Assembly: GCA_937921825.1 (NCBI GenBank)
Contig: CAKZVK010000036.1
Coordinates: forward strand, 1 to 64,000
Origin: an uncultured Saprospiraceae bacterium
GTDB taxonomy: Bacteria; Bacteroidota; Bacteroidia; Chitinophagales; Saprospiraceae
Length of the DNA stretch: 64,000 nt
Reading direction: 5' to 3'
Below, in pieces: positions 398 to 8,947 of this stretch. The translations under genes were made by a program, and so were the position numbers. Numbering within the stretch: the stretch's first letter is position 1; every line of letters starts with the position of its first letter. A model generated the notes under the pieces. It was not told the origin of the DNA. It searched no databases and saw nothing but the letters and a program-made list of their open reading frames with translations.

Positions 398-2272
398 TTA
401 GCATTTACTTTTTATAAAATCAAAAATTGGTCTTAATACTTCAAAGTTCTCCTTAGCAATATGAGGAACAACTTCAGTAGCAAATTTCATTTTTAGAGAG
501 TCATTTATTTCGATTAGCTCTCCACCACCGACAACGGAAACCTTATGGAAATGCCCAGCTGTAGTTTCTGAATAGAATAAATGTTCAACTTCTAATTTCG
601 AATTTTCTTTAAAAGTCTTATTGCCATCTTTGATTACTTGTTTCTTAATAAGTGGAACATCAGGAACCGGAACCAAAATAGCATAACTATTCTTGTTTAG
701 AATCTTCTTAGTTAAGCCTTTATATGGATTAGCTTCTACTAAATCTTCTTCACCATTTATTGAATTCCATTCATTGTATGCCATATCAAAATCGAATAAC
801 CCAAATATTGGGAAAGTCCCCATTTCATTAATGAGTTTATCACTCTGTAGTAATAGTCGTAGATACAAACAGCCATGTCCGAAACATATTTCAAAAGGAA
901 TTTCTTCTTCATAGAGTTGAGACCAAGCGTGATTTAGTATAACAGGATCAGAATATCCTTCTGTGAACAGTATTGGTTTGTTTTGCCCAATTGTGTGGAT
1001 TACGCTTAAAATTTGCTTGTCATGTTGTACGTTAATCAGATTTGAAGAAAGCTGTCTTACAGCATATGACTTCTTGACTTTGTTGCTTATGATGTTATTA
1101 TCCTTAAAAGTGAAAAGGTTTATTCTTTTTTCTTGACTATTAAGTAATGTGATTGCACTATGGCTTGTCATAAGAACATGGTTGTTTACAGTAGCGGCTT
1201 TGGTGATATCAAAAACTTGACTCATAAAATCAAATTGCCATTCTGGATGAAGAAATGAATCAGGCTCATCTAATAGTGTGAGACAGTTTTTGTCCTTAAA
1301 CAGTTCCATGATTGTATAGATGTAAATTGACTGAAATTGTCCATCGCTGAACCAATTTATATCATTGTCTTCTACGTTAGGATCATTATGAGAAAGTGTT
1401 ATATCTACTAACATTTCAATAGTTTTCAGATTGTCGAATGATCTGAAAAGATCTTGAACAGGTAATTGTTCAAATTTATTTTGAAAGTCTTCAATGTCTA
1501 AATAAAGCTCATATTTATCATCATATGATTTTTTTTCAGGATCTGTTTGAGGTATATATTCTTCATCTCGTTCTCCTATTTTTGTTGTTCTTGCTATACT
1601 ATGTAGAACATCCATAAAGTTTTTAGTAATTCCCTTTGCTTTCCAGAATCTTGTTGAGTCTTCAAATGGATCTACATCATAGCCATTTTTATAAGAATAG
1701 TATGGACGTTTTAATGTTATATGTAATTCATTCCAATTAGGAGTTATTCCTAACTTTTGAATTATGAATTGCTTTGCTTTACAAGTATTGGGCTGTAACA
1801 AAAGAACAGTAAGTAGAAGTGCTTTGTAATCTTTACCTATTCCAATGAATTCTCTTGTATCACCTTCATTTGCCTCCTTCAGATCTTTCTTAAATTCTTC
1901 TTCATATTCATGAATTAGGTTTATGACCTTTTCGTTATGACCCGAATAGTAAATTAAAATATTATCTGGGAGCTTAACCTTTGAGATCTTTGGGACTTCT
2001 TCATTCTGATTATTTAAATATCTATTGTTAGTCCAATCCCATTTTATGAAGTGTACTTCTTCATTAATTTCATATTCAATTACGTATTCGAAATTTACTT
2101 TATATTCCTTTTCGAATAGTTGTCGAAAGATTTCAATTATAGCCTCAAATAAATTCGACTTTCCTGTTCCATTCTTTCCAACAAAAACATCTATAAAACT
2201 GTCTCCTTCAAATTTTAAGGAAAAGTCTTTGAGGTTTTTGTAGTCACTAATATAGATATGCTTTAGCCTCAT
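398..2272 (-). CDS. OLD-like ATPase with C-terminal TOPRIM domain, RM-associated
   Basis: A 624-residue predicted DNA-targeting ATPase/nuclease. The N-terminal half is an SMC/RecF-type ABC ATPase: Walker A GKNGTGKS near residues 32-39, Walker B LTLLDEPDS with the following HPEW, and the switch histidine in MTSHSA. The C-terminal half has TOPRIM-like features: an acidic strand ILFTEGYSD near residue 436 and a DxD pair in LFDFDMA near residue 492. This is the layout of OLD-family (overcoming lysogenization defect) nucleases. Its ATG overlaps the stop of hsdS (ATGA), so the two are translationally coupled and this is the last gene of the type I RM operon. ATPase genes linked to type I loci are known (for example the R-linked rloA genes), but here ATPase and TOPRIM are fused. 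It probably adds a second defence activity or regulates restriction; which one cannot be read from sequence. Confidence 0.8.
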   Translation of the reverse strand: MRLKHIYISDYKNLKDFSLKFEGDSFIDVFVGKNGTGKSNLFEAIIEIFRQLFEKEYKVNFEYVIEYEINEEVHFIKWDWTNNRYLNNQNEEVPKISKVKLPDNILIYYSGHNEKVINLIHEYEEEFKKDLKEANEGDTREFIGIGKDYKALLLTVLLLQPNTCKAKQFIIQKLGITPNWNELHITLKRPYYSYKNGYDVDPFEDSTRFWKAKGITKNFMDVLHSIARTTKIGERDEEYIPQTDPEKKSYDDKYELYLDIEDFQNKFEQLPVQDLFRSFDNLKTIEMLVDITLSHNDPNVEDNDINWFSDGQFQSIYIYTIMELFKDKNCLTLLDEPDSFLHPEWQFDFMSQVFDITKAATVNNHVLMTSHSAITLLNSQEKRINLFTFKDNNIISNKVKKSYAVRQLSSNLINVQHDKQILSVIHTIGQNKPILFTEGYSDPVILNHAWSQLYEEEIPFEICFGHGCLYLRLLLQSDKLINEMGTFPIFGLFDFDMAYNEWNSINGEEDLVEANPYKGLTKKILNKNSYAILVPVPDVPLIKKQVIKDGNKTFKENSKLEVEHLFYSETTAGHFHKVSVVGGGELIEINDSLKMKFATEVVPHIAKENFEVLRPIFDFIKSKC

Positions 2273-3996
2273 GAAGTAGATTCAGTTTGTTCCATCACTT
2301 CTCGGATTGATGATTCTAAAAAGTCTTTATAAAATGTATTTCTATTTTCTACTTCTATTTTCATTCGATCACAAGCATCAAAAAGATTGTTTACAATTCT
2401 TACTATTTCCTTCTGCTCAGCTAATGGAGGGAAAAAGGTGACTAAAGTTCTTATCATTTTTCTATCTAATCCTGGAATTAGTCCATTCGCATTCTCTTTA
2501 AAAAAGATAAGTTTAGTATTCAAGAATATTCGAACAAATTGTATCGAACTTCCTAAAGTGTTTATCGCCATTATTTGCCTTGCTATATGAGCTTTTTCAA
2601 CATGAAGCCAGCCCATTTTACCAACTCCTGATCCTTTACAGGTCAATAATAAATCACCTTTAAAGGCAATAGATTTGGGCTCATTCGTCCACCTATTTAT
2701 AATTACTTTATCATTTTTGAGATTGCTTGCTCCTGTTATATATGGAAGACCTGATTGATCAGTATTTGAATATTGAGTAGGTTTTAAATCTTGTCCCGAT
2801 TTTAAAGTAATTAATTCGCCAAAATTTGTAATTACCCACCCCTCAGGCAACTCAAATGGAATCTCATCCACACTTATCTCAGGTAATGGCTTCTCTTTCC
2901 TAATCTTTTTGTCTTTAATCAATCTCGCTTTTTCTTCTTTGATCCTCTCCAACAAAACAGAAGCTGGCTCCACATCAGGATTCTCTGCTCTCCACTGCTT
3001 TGTCAACTTTCCCTGTACAGCCAATTGCAAAATCGCCTCTTTGAGTTTGTCTATACTTTCTGTGGTATCAAAAATGGAAGTGAAATGGGGTTGTAGTTTT
3101 TTCCATTCTTCAGCACTATTGGCTGTGGTCAATTGTCGCAATGAAGATTGGATAAAGTCTTGTCGAAGTTGAACTCTTGATGTGGTTTGTGCCTCCAATT
3201 GATCGACTTCTGCCATCAATTGATTGACGATTTTGACGACGGCTTTTTGTTCTTCAAGTGGTGGCAATGGAAAAATCAGATTCTTGAAAGTGGTAGATCC
3301 TATATTCCCCTGGTTCGCAGTACCACTTTCACTTGCAAATAGCTGATCAAGAATAAATTTTGCTTTTAGGAAGTAATTAAATAATTCAAAGCTTGACTTT
3401 TCAATAGATCTGATACATCCCACTCTTTGATTAAGCAAAAGAACTTTATCCTTTAAATGTTCGCTTGTTACTATACATGTAAAGCAATAATCTCTCTTTC
3501 CTTTAGTGCCTGTTAATGTGGTAAGAACATCTCCTTTATAAAGTTTATAGTCGAGATTAGCTTTACCTATAGAATCAGGAACAAAAGCTTGTTTTGCATT
3601 AATTTTGAAATAATCGTTTTTTACATTACCTAACCTGATTACTTGGAAGGAGGATTGATCAACGTAAGTTGAACTCTTAAATGCGTATCCATTTAAGAAC
3701 GAAATTATGTTTCCGAACCTGCACCATGCCCATCCCATGGGTAACTCAAAAGGAACCCCATCTTTACCTATCTCAGACAAAGGCTTCTCCTTTCTAATTT
3801 TTTTTTCTTTTATTAACTTTGCTTTTACACCTTTAATCTTCTCCAATAAAGAAAAAGCTGGTTCCACATCAGGATTCTCTTTCCTCCATTCCTCAGATAA
3901 CCTCCCTCGAATAGCCAAATCCAATATTAATCCTTTTAACTCTTTAGAATTTTCAGGCTTAAGACTCAACTTGTCAAAATACTTCAGTAAATGCAT
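2269..3996 (-). CDS. hsdS: Type I restriction-modification specificity subunit
   Basis: A 575-residue HsdS. It recognises the bipartite DNA target and holds HsdM and HsdR together. Two half-subunits are visible. Each begins with a conserved helical segment (residues about 5-75 and 315-385) containing ENPDVEPA...LLE(K/R)IK and KKIRKEKPL, followed by (P/E)FELP.GW and a variable target recognition domain. Each half ends in LPPLEEQK / FPPLAEQK, the usual dimerisation helix. The gene starts one base after the hsdM stop and its own stop overlaps the next gene. The two conserved blocks are also similar at DNA level, which could allow domain exchange. The length is somewhat above a typical HsdS because of the extra N-terminal conserved block. 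Confidence 0.95.
   Translation of the reverse strand: MHLLKYFDKLSLKPENSKELKGLILDLAIRGRLSEEWRKENPDVEPAFSLLEKIKGVKAKLIKEKKIRKEKPLSEIGKDGVPFELPMGWAWCRFGNIISFLNGYAFKSSTYVDQSSFQVIRLGNVKNDYFKINAKQAFVPDSIGKANLDYKLYKGDVLTTLTGTKGKRDYCFTCIVTSEHLKDKVLLLNQRVGCIRSIEKSSFELFNYFLKAKFILDQLFASESGTANQGNIGSTTFKNLIFPLPPLEEQKAVVKIVNQLMAEVDQLEAQTTSRVQLRQDFIQSSLRQLTTANSAEEWKKLQPHFTSIFDTTESIDKLKEAILQLAVQGKLTKQWRAENPDVEPASVLLERIKEEKARLIKDKKIRKEKPLPEISVDEIPFELPEGWVITNFGELITLKSGQDLKPTQYSNTDQSGLPYITGASNLKNDKVIINRWTNEPKSIAFKGDLLLTCKGSGVGKMGWLHVEKAHIARQIMAINTLGSSIQFVRIFLNTKLIFFKENANGLIPGLDRKMIRTLVTFFPPLAEQKEIVRIVNNLFDACDRMKIEVENRNTFYKDFLESSIREVMEQTESTS
2836..3045 (-). repeat. HsdS internal repeat, copy B
   Basis: DNA encoding the second conserved block of HsdS. 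It resembles 3721-3940 through runs such as CCACATCAGGATTCTCT and GGCTTCTC. It is a direct repeat within one gene and a possible substrate for homologous exchange of recognition domains. Confidence 0.75.
3721..3940 (-). repeat. HsdS internal repeat, copy A
   Basis: DNA encoding the first conserved block of HsdS and direct-repeat partner of 2836-3045. The shared protein signature is ENPDVEPA followed by LLE(K/R)IK and KKIRKEKPL. Confidence 0.75.
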
Positions 3997-3997
3997 A

Positions 3998-5425
3998 TTA
4001 AGACAAGGCTTTGTTGAGGACGGAAATAATTTCTTCTTGGATCGTTTTGATGTTTTGTTCTGTTTCTTGCAGTTTGCCTAATATGACATCCGGACTCTCA
4101 AGATGATCTACCTCTTCATAAGGATTCTTGATGTCGAGATTGTAGTTGCGTTTTTTGATCTCATCGATACTTACTTTCCATGCTTGTTTGCTTTTCTTTC
4201 TCTTATTCCACCATTTCTTCTCTGCATCAAATTCCTTGACGGTTATAGGCTTTGATTTATTGTAGCTCTTGTAACCTTTCGGGTAGGGATGCTCGTAGTA
4301 CCAGATTTCTTTAGTCGGTGTTCCCTTCTCGAAGAAGAGTATGTTGGTTTTTATACTGGTGTAAGGATTGAAGACACCATTAGGCAGACGGACAATGGTA
4401 TGAAGATTACATCGAGCCAGTAGTTCTTCTTTGAGTCTTGTCTTGACACCTTCACCAAACAAAGTGCCATCAGGTAGAACGACTGCTGCACGTCCACCAT
4501 CTTTGAGTAATCTTATAATAAGCGCTAAGAATAAGTCTGCTGTTTCTTTAGTTCTGAATTTCTGAGGAAAGTTTGTTTCTGTTCCATCTTCTTCTACGCC
4601 ACCAAAAGGAGGATTGGTAATTATGACATCCACTTTATCCTTAGACCCCCAATCGCTGTAGGGCTTACTTAGATAATTATCTCTTCTTACTGTGGGTACA
4701 TCAAATCCATTGAGCATGAGGTTAGTCGTGCACAAAAGGTGTGGTAGTGGTTTCTTTTCTATGCCTCTGATTTTCTTTTGTATTTGCGCTGGCTTATAGT
4801 TTTTAGAGTTTTCTCTGATATAATTTATAGAATTAACCAAGAAGCCTCCTGTGCCGCAAGCTGGATCCAGAATGCTTTCTCCCTTTTTGGGATTGATGAT
4901 GTCTACCATGAATTTGGTGACGCCTCTTGGTGTATAGTATTCTCCAGAAGAGCCCGCTGATTGTAGTTCCTTTAGTATAGTCTCATATAGATCATTGAAT
5001 AAGTGTCGCTCTTTCTGATCGTTGAAGTCTATTTTATTTATCTCATTGATGACTTGACGGAATAGGGTACCGTTTTTCATGTAGTTATACGTATCCTCAA
5101 ATACGGACCTTACTATGGCAGCTTGAGGACCCAATGAAGGATCTAGTTCTTTGAGAGTCGGGAATAAGGAATTGTTGATAAAATCCATCAATTTATCTCC
5201 CGTGTCTCCCTCGTCATCTGCTGCCCAAGATTGCCATTTAAGATATTTCGGTAGCGGACTTTCGTAATTTTCTAAGGTGATACTCCATTCTTCTTCTTTG
5301 TCAGCAAATATCTTCATGAAGATCATCCACACCATCTGCGATATACGCTGCGCATCTCCATCTACTCCTGTATCCTTACGCATAATGTCTCTGATAGACT
5401 TTATGATTCCTGTGATGTTACTCAT
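3998..5425 (-). CDS. hsdM: Type I restriction-modification DNA methyltransferase subunit
   Basis: A 475-residue HsdM, an adenine N6-methyltransferase that acts with HsdS and also forms part of the restriction complex. It has an N-terminal helical HsdM_N region (about 1-130), then the S-adenosylmethionine motif DPACGTGGF near residue 187 and the catalytic motif NPPFGG near residue 271. The C-terminal tail is helical and probably contacts HsdS. The start codon immediately follows the stop of the DUF1016 gene, and hsdS starts one base after its end, so R, DUF1016, M, S and the ATPase are almost certainly one transcript. The length is normal for the family. Confidence 0.96.
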   Translation of the reverse strand: MSNITGIIKSIRDIMRKDTGVDGDAQRISQMVWMIFMKIFADKEEEWSITLENYESPLPKYLKWQSWAADDEGDTGDKLMDFINNSLFPTLKELDPSLGPQAAIVRSVFEDTYNYMKNGTLFRQVINEINKIDFNDQKERHLFNDLYETILKELQSAGSSGEYYTPRGVTKFMVDIINPKKGESILDPACGTGGFLVNSINYIRENSKNYKPAQIQKKIRGIEKKPLPHLLCTTNLMLNGFDVPTVRRDNYLSKPYSDWGSKDKVDVIITNPPFGGVEEDGTETNFPQKFRTKETADLFLALIIRLLKDGGRAAVVLPDGTLFGEGVKTRLKEELLARCNLHTIVRLPNGVFNPYTSIKTNILFFEKGTPTKEIWYYEHPYPKGYKSYNKSKPITVKEFDAEKKWWNKRKKSKQAWKVSIDEIKKRNYNLDIKNPYEEVDHLESPDVILGKLQETEQNIKTIQEEIISVLNKALS

Positions 5426-6565
5426 CTATAGTTTCTTCTTTTCTTGGTGTAAAAATCTCTTCAGTTCTTCTATAGAGGGCAGTGCTGTTTTGTATTGACT
5501 GACAAATAGATTTTCGTCCATACCACCTAAGGCGTATTCTACCAGCTCTTCATTCTTATTCGTACATAGCAAAATACCTATGGGAGGATTGTCATCATCT
5601 CTTTGTTCGTTAGTTTTGTAGTATTGTATGTAGGTGTTAAGCTGACCTGCGTTGGCATGGGTAAATTCTTCTACTTTGAGTTCTATGATGACATGGCATT
5701 TCAGAATCCGATGATAGAATAATAAATCTATAAAGTAATATTCTCCACCGATTATGATTCTTTTTTGTTGTGCTTCAAAGCAAAAGCCGTGACCAAGCTC
5801 AAGGATAAAATTCTTGAGTTCCTTAATCAATGCTTTTTCTAATGCAGATTCTGAGCCCAAGACTTGGTCTGGCAGTCCCAAAAAATCAAAGACGTAAGGC
5901 GTTTTTATGATTTGTTCTGGCAATAGTCTTGCTGCACCTTTACTTAAGCTCTCTGACAAGGAGGAAGGATCCTTAGCTGCTGCACTCCGTTCGAAATTGA
6001 GGCTATTGATTTGACGTTTGAGTTCTCTGACCGACCATACGCCTTTTATGGCTTCTATCTCGTAGTATGTTCTTTTGATGGGGTCATCTACTTTCAGCAG
6101 TTCTACCAGATGAGAGAATGATAGTGTAGATATGAGTTTTGCTGGTGGTACGACAGGAGTATTGGTCGATTCTGCAGACGATGTATGCATAATTGGCCGG
6201 CCTTTAGATTTTACAGACATTGTCTGCAAAATCTTGGAATCCAAAAAGGCAGACACTGTCTGCCCAATCTCATCTGTCAATAAGTCAGACACTGTCTGAC
6301 TTATCTGAGGATAGTTGATATACAATTGTTTAAAGAGCTTCAGATTCGTTGCAGAAAGCCCCTTTGTTTCTATTCTATCAGAAAGATTTTTAAGTAACAG
6401 AGTCCCATATTCGGCTCTATCTTCCCCATTTTGCTCATATTCTACGATATAGAAGCCGATCAACCAATTTCTTAGAGTTAGATACTGATCTATTGTTCTT
6501 GATGCTTTTCCTTTGAAATAATCATCCGTTTGCTTGATCTGTGATATAAGTAATTGAATATCCAT
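5426..6565 (-). CDS. DUF1016 (YhcG-like) PD-(D/E)xK nuclease within the RM operon
   Basis: A 379-residue protein of the DUF1016/YhcG family. The N-terminal domain (residues about 1-100) starts with a Q-x-R-T-like segment followed by YGxxLLxxLS, typical of the family. The C-terminal domain has the restriction-endonuclease-like core: D in YFIDLLFYH near residue 280 and E-x-K in IIELK near 295-297. Between them lies a linker made of a repeated QTVS-type unit encoded by palindromic DNA (see the repeat entry). The ATG directly follows the hsdR stop with no gap, and hsdM follows with no gap. DUF1016 proteins are often found in or beside defence loci and are predicted nucleases; their role in type I systems is not established. 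The family assignment is firm; the activity is inferred. Confidence 0.88.
   Translation of the reverse strand: MDIQLLISQIKQTDDYFKGKASRTIDQYLTLRNWLIGFYIVEYEQNGEDRAEYGTLLLKNLSDRIETKGLSATNLKLFKQLYINYPQISQTVSDLLTDEIGQTVSAFLDSKILQTMSVKSKGRPIMHTSSAESTNTPVVPPAKLISTLSFSHLVELLKVDDPIKRTYYEIEAIKGVWSVRELKRQINSLNFERSAAAKDPSSLSESLSKGAARLLPEQIIKTPYVFDFLGLPDQVLGSESALEKALIKELKNFILELGHGFCFEAQQKRIIIGGEYYFIDLLFYHRILKCHVIIELKVEEFTHANAGQLNTYIQYYKTNEQRDDDNPPIGILLCTNKNEELVEYALGGMDENLFVSQYKTALPSIEELKRFLHQEKKKL
6174..6303 (-). repeat. In-frame array of four palindromes (core CAGACACTGTCTG) in the DUF1016 gene
   Basis: Palindromes are centred at about 6181 (degenerate), 6220, 6256 and 6292, that is 39, 36 and 36 bases apart, all multiples of 3. 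The copy at 6281-6303 is a perfect 23-base palindrome around a central C, and the copy at 6248-6264 is a perfect 17-mer. The arms outside the core differ between copies (AAGT/ACTT, GG/CC, TTT/AAA) but keep their symmetry. In protein they give repeated QTVS/QTMS/HTSS units 12-13 residues apart. Confidence 0.9.
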
Positions 6566-8947
6566 TTAAGCAGATCTGTATATTTCGTTTTCTAATTCTT
6601 TGATAGCATCTTCAAATGCCTCTTTCCCTCCAAAAGCTCTCACCAGCTGAACAGGAGAACCCAATTCATTAAGAGGCTTTACTTTTAAGACTGAGCCTTT
6701 CTCAATTTGAATAAGTCCATGTTCTTCATACTTATCTAAAAGTTTGTGTATCACGATTTGGGCTAATTCGCTGTACTTCGCAAAGTAGTTTCTTTTCCTT
6801 ACGTTATTCGCTCGGTCTTTTCTTGTTAGCGGTGGTTGGTCATAAGCCACATGACAGACCAAATCAAACTCATCCATATCTTTTCCTACTTCTTCTTTTA
6901 ATGCTTCTATCAGTATGCCTTGTTCTGCAAGTTCTCTGATTAATTCTTCTTTGTGTTCAGCGCTTTTCCATTTCTGGGAAAAATCAATATGGGACGCATA
7001 AGATTGTAACACATTATTTCTTGTGTAGTCTTTTAATGATTCAGTAATGAGTTTGCCATCTTTACCATAATACTGTACTCTTTCATGAGCTATAGAAACT
7101 GGTATATTATTGACATAGAACTTCTTCACTTTACCTTCTTCATCGTCTATGAAAATCTCATCGGAAGAAGACCAGTCAACGTCATCAAAAGTAGTTAGGT
7201 TGTCTTCATTGATTTCCTCAATCACATCAGGTGGTACCACTGAACCTTCAGGCCCTGGTTCATAGATTTGGACAGGATCACCATCAAAGTCTGGATCGGC
7301 AAAAAGGTTAGTCGCTTTCCTGAAATCTAGGATTGTAAAAAACACCTTTCCTTCATGTTCTACGATTCGTGTTCCTCGACCAATAATTTGCTTGAATTCA
7401 GTCATAGATCCTATGTTTGATTCCAAGACAATGAGCTTAGCCATTTTAGTATTTATGCCTGTGGTAAGCATTTTTGATGTGGTAGCGATTACTGGCATCC
7501 TTTCTTCCACATCAATAAAGTTATCCAATTCTCTTTTCCCAACTTCATCATCTCCTGTAATCTTGACCACGTAGTTAGGATACTTAGCAACCATATCGGC
7601 ATTCTCATTGATAAGTGCCATGCGCATACGATTAGCATGATCTATATCTACACAGAATACAATGGTCTTCGCAAAAGGATCAACCTCTCTTATATATTGC
7701 GATATCTTCTGAGCAACTATTTGTGTTCGTTCATCAATGGCAAGATTCCTATCATAGTCTTTTAGGTTGTAAATACGATCTTCTATTTCGTTTCCATATT
7801 TGTCTCGTAATCCTGCTGTTGGACGCCAACCTTCATCCACAGTAGTAGATACTCTTACTACTTTATATGGAGCTAAAAATCCATCATCGATCCCTTGCTT
7901 CAGTGTATAGGTATATACTGGTTTTCCGAAATAAGACATGTTAGACACGTCTTTCGTTTCTTTTGGCGTTGCGGTTAAGCCAATTTGTGTTGCATTAGAG
8001 AAATGGTCTAATACTTCTCTCCATGCAGAAGCTTCAGAAGCACTTCCTCTATGGCACTCATCTATAATTACTAAATCGAAAAAGTCTTTACTGAATTCTC
8101 TGTATGCATTTTTAGAATCATCATTACTGGTCAATCCTTGGTATAATGCAAAGTAGATTTGATAAGACTTGTCGATTTTTCTATTCTTGATAATATGCAT
8201 GATGTCATTCCCAAAAGGAGAGAAGTCACCATTCTTGGTTTGTGCTAATAATGCATTTCGATCAGCAAGAAATAGAATTCGTTTTTTTACTCCAGATTTC
8301 CAGAGTCTCCAAATTATATTGAAAGCGGTATAGGTTTTACCCGTACCCGTTGCCATCACAAGAATGATTCTTTGTTGCCCTTTTGAGATCGCTTCTATTG
8401 TTCTATTAATGGCATTCTGCTGATAATATCTTGGAGTCATTCCAGAAGTATCTGCATAATAGTCCTGCTCTACTATTTCCTTAGATTCAATATTGTCAAT
8501 ACCTCTGTATTCAAGATACTTGTTCCATAATAGCGTCGGACTAGGAAAATCACTTAACTGAATTTCTTTTTCCTTCGAGCTTGTTTTGTCATGAAAAACG
8601 AATGAGTCACCATTAGAGGTAAATACAAATGGGATGTGAAGAATGTCAGAATACTCAAGGGCTTGCTGCATGCCATCTCCAACAGGCTTTTTGTTGTCCT
8701 TAGCCTCGATTATTGCAATTGGAATATTCAGCTTGTAGTAAAGAATATAATCTGCTCTTTTTCTTTTACCTCTTGTATGTAATTTTCCTTGTACAATTAT
8801 ACGACCGTCAGTAAAGGAGACTTCTTCTCTTACTTGTTTCCTCATATTCCATCCAGCCTGTTCGATTGCAGGATTGATGAATTTTGTACATATGTCTCTT
8901 TCTGACAGTTCCTTTTTATTCATGGGATTAATAGATCTATGTCTCAC
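6566..8947 (-). CDS. hsdR: Type I restriction endonuclease subunit R
   Basis: A 793-residue HsdR, the ATP-driven translocase and nuclease of the type I system. The N-terminal nuclease domain contains a PD-(D/E)xK core (RADYILYY, then IIEAKDNKK near residues 70-85). The SF2 helicase follows: Walker A MATGTGKT near residue 198, box II DECHR, motif III LTATPKE, and a motif VI region IIGRGTR. The C-terminal part is the EcoEI-type R_C domain. The first in-frame start is GTG at 8947, but ATG at 8923 begins the usual family N-terminus (MNKKELSERD) and is the likelier start (785 residues). It is the first gene of the five-gene minus-strand operon and is intact. Confidence 0.95.
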   Translation of the reverse strand: MRHRSINPMNKKELSERDICTKFINPAIEQAGWNMRKQVREEVSFTDGRIIVQGKLHTRGKRKRADYILYYKLNIPIAIIEAKDNKKPVGDGMQQALEYSDILHIPFVFTSNGDSFVFHDKTSSKEKEIQLSDFPSPTLLWNKYLEYRGIDNIESKEIVEQDYYADTSGMTPRYYQQNAINRTIEAISKGQQRIILVMATGTGKTYTAFNIIWRLWKSGVKKRILFLADRNALLAQTKNGDFSPFGNDIMHIIKNRKIDKSYQIYFALYQGLTSNDDSKNAYREFSKDFFDLVIIDECHRGSASEASAWREVLDHFSNATQIGLTATPKETKDVSNMSYFGKPVYTYTLKQGIDDGFLAPYKVVRVSTTVDEGWRPTAGLRDKYGNEIEDRIYNLKDYDRNLAIDERTQIVAQKISQYIREVDPFAKTIVFCVDIDHANRMRMALINENADMVAKYPNYVVKITGDDEVGKRELDNFIDVEERMPVIATTSKMLTTGINTKMAKLIVLESNIGSMTEFKQIIGRGTRIVEHEGKVFFTILDFRKATNLFADPDFDGDPVQIYEPGPEGSVVPPDVIEEINEDNLTTFDDVDWSSSDEIFIDDEEGKVKKFYVNNIPVSIAHERVQYYGKDGKLITESLKDYTRNNVLQSYASHIDFSQKWKSAEHKEELIRELAEQGILIEALKEEVGKDMDEFDLVCHVAYDQPPLTRKDRANNVRKRNYFAKYSELAQIVIHKLLDKYEEHGLIQIEKGSVLKVKPLNELGSPVQLVRAFGGKEAFEDAIKELENEIYRSA

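Follow-up and report, generated by a model that had tools for sequence, protein, structure and literature searches.

Most of the DUF1016 (YhcG) genes that we sampled contain a palindrome at a conserved place within their own reading frame. Judging from covariation among the sequences, it is likely that this palindrome is a binding site for the protein of its own gene, read by a dimer of an N-terminal domain predicted to resemble those of ParB and Noc. In the proposed arrangement the N-domain, acting as a symmetric dimer, would read an odd-centred palindrome roughly 19 bp long. The outer half-site, positions ±5 to ±9, would fall to helix A (alignment columns 70-76), and the inner one, ±2 to ±4, to residues around columns 100-103 and 129-130. 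Binding to the DNA, dimer formation and what binding brings about are all inferred.

The window (the whole stretch of 64,000 nucleotides analysed) carries one such gene within a type I restriction operon. The relevant features are:

398..2272, minus strand: AAA ATPase, best PADLOC match PtuA-like
2269..3996, minus strand: hsdS
3998..5425, minus strand: hsdM, directly downstream of the DUF1016 gene
5426..6565, minus strand: DUF1016/YhcG gene, 379 amino acids, with DUF1016_N (PF17761) and YhcG_C PDDEXK nuclease (PF06250) domains
5459..5914, minus strand: YhcG_C PDDEXK nuclease domain, residues 218-369, by Pfam match
6026..6031, minus strand: reader B, residues 179-180 (columns 129 and 130), assigned by covariation and expected to read bases ±2 and ±3
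6104..6115, minus strand: reader B, residues 151-154 (columns 100 and 103), assigned by covariation and expected to read bases ±3 and ±4
6169..6193: fourth palindrome, decayed, centre 6181, palindrome score 5
6206..6234: third palindrome, centre 6220, in the linker
6248..6264: second palindrome, centre 6256, in the linker
6280..6304: primary palindrome, centre 6292, adjoining the reader helix at the family-conserved place, HMM column 93
6314..6352, minus strand: predicted reader helix A, residues 72-84, with covarying residues 71-77 (HMM columns 70-76) that would read bases ±5 to ±9
6566..8947, minus strand: hsdR of the type I restriction operon, upstream of the DUF1016 gene

Both Pfam domains of the window protein score above cut-off (86.9 and 186.1 bits), and its PDDEXK catalytic residues are E239, D280, E295 and K297. 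The PADLOC models PDC-S02, a label for a candidate defence gene, match the window protein (E 7e-122) and YhcG of Escherichia coli K-12 (E 2e-131). PtuA is the nearest PADLOC relative of the AAA ATPase that follows hsdS, so the operon may carry one more defence gene.

On the coding (minus) strand the palindrome centred at 6292 reads ataagtCAGACAgTGTCTGacttat (12/12 pairs), that at 6256 ggCAGACAgTGTCTGcc (8/8 pairs) and that at 6220 agattttgCAGACAaTGTCTGtaaaatct (13/14 pairs), each with a centre of one nucleotide. The primary palindrome is centred on codon V92, HMM column 93, at codon position 1. The preliminary description had recorded an array of four palindromes in this gene. The array is real and the centre-to-centre spacings are 36, 36 and 39 nucleotides, but only three members are strong; the fourth, with a score of 5, is much weaker than described. 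The outer arms vary from copy to copy and remain complementary, as had been noted. When one mismatch is allowed, the window has 8 copies of CAGACNNNGTCTG, where 1.28 are expected and none of 100 shuffles exceeds 5. Of the four occurrences of the core CAGACANTGTCTG in the 4.0-Mb source genome, three are within the DUF1016 gene array. The other is a lone CAGACATTGTCTG (L004:1501-1513; C83:12064 of the window's genome) at the 3' end of what was identified by eye as a ribosomal protein L10 gene, where it is probably due to chance.

The palindrome is not restricted to the window gene but is typical of most of the family. The earliest homologues considered have a palindrome at the same place in other letters (a GGGGGAC core in L012, GTGCGGAC in L010). 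We gathered 212 distinct DUF1016 coding sequences (224 before removal of identical DNA). The sources were the window's phylum, a set of named homologues with their genomes and, for three of these homologues (one of the three being an archaeon), their phyla, as well as E. coli and plasmids of Pseudomonadota, Actinomycetota and Deinococcota; the genes, picked by HMM, are best-scoring or fetched matches from the genomes searched. A palindrome with an arm score of at least 7 is present at the site in 154 of the 188 sampled genes that span it. Palindromes with a score of at least 9 lie mostly in HMM columns 80-99 (143/159), and 151 of the 159 are centred on one base at codon position 1. There are 32 genes that lack a site of score 6; 17 are fragments missing the region, and the remaining 15 of the 212, some of them near-identical, have the region yet no palindrome of score 6 or above.

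Selection on the pairing itself, beyond the protein sequence, had been proposed and is supported in several ways. In a test blind to symmetry, made at column 93 of ungapped genes, seven or more of the eight positions 2-9 are paired in 88% of 90 distinct sequences; at nine other codons (columns 90-92 and 94-99) this is true of none. In 145 of 196 genes the observed score is reached by at most two of 200 synonymous shuffles, 16 of the 212 having been left out since too little of the site region is present. The fixed-column test and these shuffles, which compare maximum against maximum, are free of bias from the choice of site. Two further comparisons use sites picked by score, which inflates the pairing: palindromes scoring at least 9 anywhere in the gene are found in 127 of 212 DUF1016 genes against 6 of 186 neighbouring open reading frames, and when codons are exchanged for others encoding the same residue at the same place, pairs 2 and 4-8 stay above expectation with z of 7.1 to 14.5, with z of 3.5 at position 3, 5.5 at position 9 and 3.1 at position 13. 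In that exchange pair 1 and pairs 10-12, an AATT-like flank, are accounted for by the protein.

The letters are free to vary. Each of pairs 2-9 occurs as three or four Watson-Crick types, and 168 genes contain 55 different inner cores. Additional palindromes occur near amino acid 54 in L114, L115, L121, L020 and L042, and near amino acid 150 in L023, L032 and L154. Nine genomes have paralogues and, where a site is detected, their palindromes differ; this observation has no chance baseline.

Which residues accompany which bases? The code was derived from 147 of the 212 genes, all full-length (effective number 87), leaving out those with more than 80 gaps or no usable site in columns 90-96. For bases -9 to -2 the top covarying columns outside the site are, respectively, 75, 306, 72, 70, 76, 103, 129 and 130, and all except 306 (base -8) fall in two regions. 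The associations are close, though the 147 genes include related sequences and the counts are not independent: Arg72 with G at -7 (56/60), Lys or Gln72 with C at -7 (26/29), Trp75 with T at -8 (37/40), Glu75 with C at -8 (10/10), Asp or Glu70 with G at -6 (16/17), Tyr76 with A at -5 (37/37), Arg103 with C at -4 (29/31), Lys129 with C at -3 (31/31), Thr or Ser129 with G at -3 (23/25) and Arg130 with C at -2 (84/85). In protein-DNA recognition, contacts of arginine or lysine to guanine, and of aspartate or glutamate to cytosine, are usual ones.

Predictions were made with 65% clusters left out and the column chosen in training. The accuracy, against that of the training majority, is 0.77 versus 0.36 at -7 (column 72), 0.77 versus 0.08 at -4 (column 103) and 0.84 versus 0.01 at -3 (column 129), the commonest base overall at -4 and -3 being near 0.4. 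Elsewhere the values are 0.54 (majority 0.38) at -9, 0.48 (0.61) at -8, 0.67 (0.57) at -6, 0.78 (0.70) at -5 and 0.80 (0.76) at -2. When whole 50% clades are held out -7 and -3 survive (0.68 and 0.78), -4 drops to 0.39, and -8, -6 and -5 fall below the majority. Among control nucleotides elsewhere two of nine exceed the majority, by 0.02 and 0.11. The residue-base code is strong only at -7, -4 and -3. A separate comparison of 72 independent nearest pairs, comprising 2264 residue-base tests, is led by column 72 with -7 (p 2e-6) and column 75 with -8 (p 6e-6), the only two past Bonferroni correction. Its top twelve include column 75 with -9, 100 with -3, 129 with -3 and 103 with -4; columns of no obvious role (279, 209, 173 and 13) also rank high. 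Across the collected genes the arm bases covary with each other and with reader residues. This covariation is indirect support for the predicted sequence-specific binding of the palindrome by the N-domain, and it lends strong support to the self-recognition site that the preliminary description had offered as one candidate role.

Structure prediction is consistent with such a role. In the model of the window protein (pLDDT 80) the covarying residues lie or begin in helices 72-84, 150-157 and 179-187, and linker residues 117-134 have pLDDT below 50. The N-domain of a compact relative, L028, was modelled with a pLDDT of 92.8. Compared with known structures using VIA, its first 12 rows are all ParB, Noc or Spo0J with Z from 9.1 to 6.9, and the next row has a Z of 4.9; the best match (Z 9.1, RMSD 3.1, 98 aligned) should be read with the caveat that values below 13 may be weak for helical bundles. 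Foldseek alone gives this domain an E value no better than 0.048. Independently, the Pfam family HTH_ParB matches 14 of 74 N-domains at E ≤ 0.01, the best at 2.9e-5, at least one of them lying below the curated cut-off. A sequence-profile search of solved structures does not have ParB among the matches listed. We predict that the DUF1016 N-domain folds like the DNA-binding domains of ParB and Noc. The available text of PMC1189080 describes the YhcG nuclease motif and gives the function of the N-domain as not known at that time. For the C-terminal domain the fold match is EndoMS, with a Z of 12.1. At the positions of E239, D280 and K297 all 147 aligned site-bearing genes encode E, D and K, truncated genes having been dropped beforehand.

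Alleles of E. coli yhcG provide a natural comparison. The K-12 gene has three internal palindromes and a single mispair at ±8. The genes of strains O102:H6 and PN43 (K-12-like) are 88-100% identical per 60 nucleotides outside nucleotides 240-420, whereas within that segment, which holds helix A and the palindrome array, identity is 60-68% (36/60, 39/57 and 29/48). From PN43 to O102:H6 Lys85 becomes Arg as C becomes G at -7, and Arg88 becomes Trp as G becomes T at -8, both as the family table predicts; base -9 of O102:H6, a G under Trp, departs from it. The pattern points to two alleles that differ by joint exchange of reader helix and palindromes. Among 5426 genomes, 3915 have a full or partial match to the PN43/K-12 cassette and 468 match the other.

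Several further observations concern this locus. An untranslated perfect palindrome of the same type is centred 28 nucleotides after the yhcG stop codon (L082:6971-6995; also L083, L088, L089, L222 and L223) in K-12, PN43, O157:H7, O102:H6 and two more strains, and it differs between alleles with compensation, CTG/CAG as against CTC/GAG. In E. coli B C2566 (L084:6380-6406) yhcG ends at the edge of the third palindrome, and about 470 nucleotides of other DNA stand where the remainder of yhcG and its downstream palindrome would be. Copies of IS1 adjoin yhcG remnants that start inside palindrome 3 (L085:5985-6001, K-12 gene nucleotide 385; L221:1485-1501), which is possibly a hot spot. Systematic truncation of the family's genes at the palindrome, an idea prompted by E. 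coli B and the IS1 insertions, is not borne out: gene ends are scattered across the family.

The linker copies are less simply explained. In 45 within-gene comparisons of copies that differ, some of them from near-identical genes, the log-odds fit to the inner code is 1.70 for secondary and 1.57 for primary copies; to the outer code it is -0.27 and 0.46, the primary copy being better in 22 and the secondary in 15 of the 45. The window array follows suit. Its linker copies keep the inner code, and the outer triplet suits the resident reader less well (1.6 for the primary, -0.1 and -1.9 for the other two scored copies). Secondary copies that stay symmetric with a poor fit to the reader are not explained by simple sequence recognition. 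They would be extra sites, or former ones left by cassette exchange, and may also serve as sites for other alleles. A repeat that sets linker length had also been suggested. Length does change, as E. coli O157:H7 yhcG lacks 78 nucleotides, equal to two repeat units, but this cannot account for the palindrome because compact genes with no linker carry a single one.

Three alternatives would dispense with a protein that reads the DNA at this place. The transcript could form hairpins, and the compensated arms would suit an array of them, which the preliminary description had offered as a control of expression; it might govern translation or be a target of the protein. However, G-T mispairs, which RNA would tolerate on the coding strand, are not more frequent than A-C (20 and 28 of 1344, p=0.31; 33 and 46 over 215 sites), and the bases change in step with residues of a fold predicted to bind DNA. 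The variable letters and the missing G-T bias place the constraint on DNA and not on mRNA, and we reject the hairpin array as extremely unlikely. Rickettsia palindromic elements are in-frame palindromes in coding DNA scattered over unrelated genes. The DUF1016 palindrome is likewise short, in frame and repeated in units, with copies near amino acids 54 and 150 in some subfamilies, but it is fixed in one family, and in compact proteins it keeps to one codon across several phyla. A search of 118 genomes of the window's phylum finds the window core as 19 exact matches, 12 in DUF1016 genes and 7 outside them, and a reversed-pattern control also gives 7. Scatter through unrelated genes, which was held to count against a role tied to this gene, is therefore not above background, dispersal is rejected for the window core in this phylum, and a mobile element of this kind is almost certainly not the explanation. 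Correction of quasi-palindromes by template switching might keep the arms complementary with no selection at all. Such self-maintenance would account for symmetric copies unsuited to the reader, but palindromes are rare in the neighbouring open reading frames and covariation with residues encoded 20 to 110 nucleotides away (in compact genes) is left unexplained; we consider it very unlikely.

It is also conceivable, if improbable, that structure is all that matters, a cruciform or extruded hairpin being recognised by the nuclease or by replication proteins whatever its letters. Consistent with this, 246 of 401 differing within-gene comparisons at pairs 2-8 are Watson-Crick in both copies (weak palindromes anywhere included), the untranslated copy after the E. 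coli stop codon varies with compensation, and deletions in the array suggest hairpin slippage. The accessible portion of PMC2672614 reports that yhcG deletion is synthetic lethal with dnaB, dnaN and parE alleles. It also links YhcG to HsdMRS, McrABC and replication in E. coli, ties that do not separate one consequence of binding from another. Neither the base-residue covariation nor the difference of the E. coli alleles in reader and site together is predicted by structure alone.

If the N-domain does read the palindrome, what would follow? We regard a portable autoregulatory operator inside the coding region as the most likely consequence, with chances a little short of even. Wherever it landed, a nuclease that may do harm could in this way hold down transcription of its own gene. 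Self-regulation of this kind would be the least elaborate outcome and would be apt for a gene that passes from one operon to another; reader and site lie within about 330 nucleotides of the window gene, less in compact relatives, so they move and switch specificity together. DUF1016 genes are found near methyltransferase, BREX and integrase genes. In L205, a Methylomonas plasmid, the gene sits between pglX and pglZ of a BREX-1 locus, and on plasmids L198 and L199 it is near HU-family and integrase genes, the HU neighbour perhaps hinting at a DNA-bending partner. Against an ordinary operator, the catalytic residues are kept in every aligned gene, and mere repression would not need them. Operators at promoters were considered and set aside, as a gene's own palindromes are not enriched in its flanks: within about 2 kb, cognate copies matching at 13 or more of 16 positions number 4 of 160 against 24 of 800 in the null. 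Apart from the E. coli downstream copy, cognate sites outside the genes are not above background in the flanks or, for the window core, in the 118 genomes.

The invariant catalytic residues keep another outcome alive, namely that the palindrome is bound and cut by the nuclease whose gene carries it, either there or in allelic copies that arrive on incoming DNA. We hold this to be possible but doubtful, and view with similar reserve the associated idea that the site serves as an address in gene conversion, in copy control or in excluding rival alleles. About 16 specified bases make a nearly unique target; the window's genome has a single 13-nucleotide core outside the gene. The E. coli alleles, differing in reader and site together, would fit as well. 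Viral contigs were searched with the primary sites of PN43, O102:H6 and the window and with one pattern devised on the model of family sites, each a 19-mer. Of these four patterns two have no match and two match seven stretches, of which three are DUF1016 genes, in favour of self-directed cleavage, and four are not. A protein search of the viral contigs yields no relative, and phage genomes as a general target were rejected, given the four stretches outside DUF1016 genes and the two patterns lacking any match. The 19-mer GTGCAGACANTGTCTGCAC stands just before what was identified by eye as a RecA/UvsX-like phage gene (L227:4975-4993 and L228:5954-5972) and is perhaps a terminator. Cutting its own gene would be costly unless controlled or protected, and some genes, including yhcG of K-12, are not beside a methyltransferase.

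Comparison with known systems informs the preferred reading, recognition of the palindrome by the protein of its own gene. ParB-parS (chromosome partition) and Noc-NBS (nucleoid occlusion) resemble it in the predicted fold of the N-domain and in a dyad-symmetric target of similar length. The gene for the B. subtilis ParB, spo0J, itself contains a parS. According to the available sections of PMC7383237, ParB Arg173 bonds guanine 1 of parS and Noc residue 201 bonds guanine -6 of NBS. By our own count on the printed sequences the contacted positions are 7 and 2 bases from the dyad, giving the same outer and inner reading order as in DUF1016; residues 173 and 201, like columns 72 and 100, are 28 apart, with no one-to-one residue alignment. 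The differences are also clear. No Pfam match to the ParBc CTPase domain is found in the window protein (E 0.001) or in four further DUF1016 proteins (E 0.1), a nuclease domain taking its place; the centre is one nucleotide, the letters of the site vary widely between genes, and in most sampled members the site lies inside the gene itself.

The PDDEXK nucleases EndoMS/NucS and Card1/Can2 share the fold of the YhcG C-terminal domain. Enzymes of these types act on mismatches or are switched by cyclic oligoadenylate, whereas in DUF1016 the partner domain is a predicted sequence reader. Homing endonucleases have a very long recognition site and their own reader, and the site is lost in the occupied allele. 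DUF1016 also combines a nuclease, a predicted reader of its own and a long site, but keeps an intact site in the gene. The parts, a ParB-like reader and a PDDEXK nuclease, are of known kinds. The text available to us of the literature on DUF1016/YhcG, COG4804, PDC-S02 and palindromes within endonuclease coding sequences makes no mention of the palindrome. We know of no other nuclease family with a variable cognate site of its own inside the reading frame.

It is unusual for one stretch of DNA to encode a protein and seemingly to serve as the variable binding site of that protein. DUF1016/YhcG is common: of 296 genomes sampled from the window's phylum, 122 have it. It occurs in restriction and BREX loci and matches models of a listed defence candidate. 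The covariation amounts to a readable protein-DNA code by which a likely target can be named for most DUF1016 members. We tentatively suggest, as one possibility and not the leading one, that these proteins are self-addressing nucleases with an exchangeable reader-target cassette, which act on their own or allelic copies and retain former targets as linker repeats. If so, a cassette swap by recombination would give a new specificity, and copies of the gene would know self by sequence, whether for control, exclusion or conversion.
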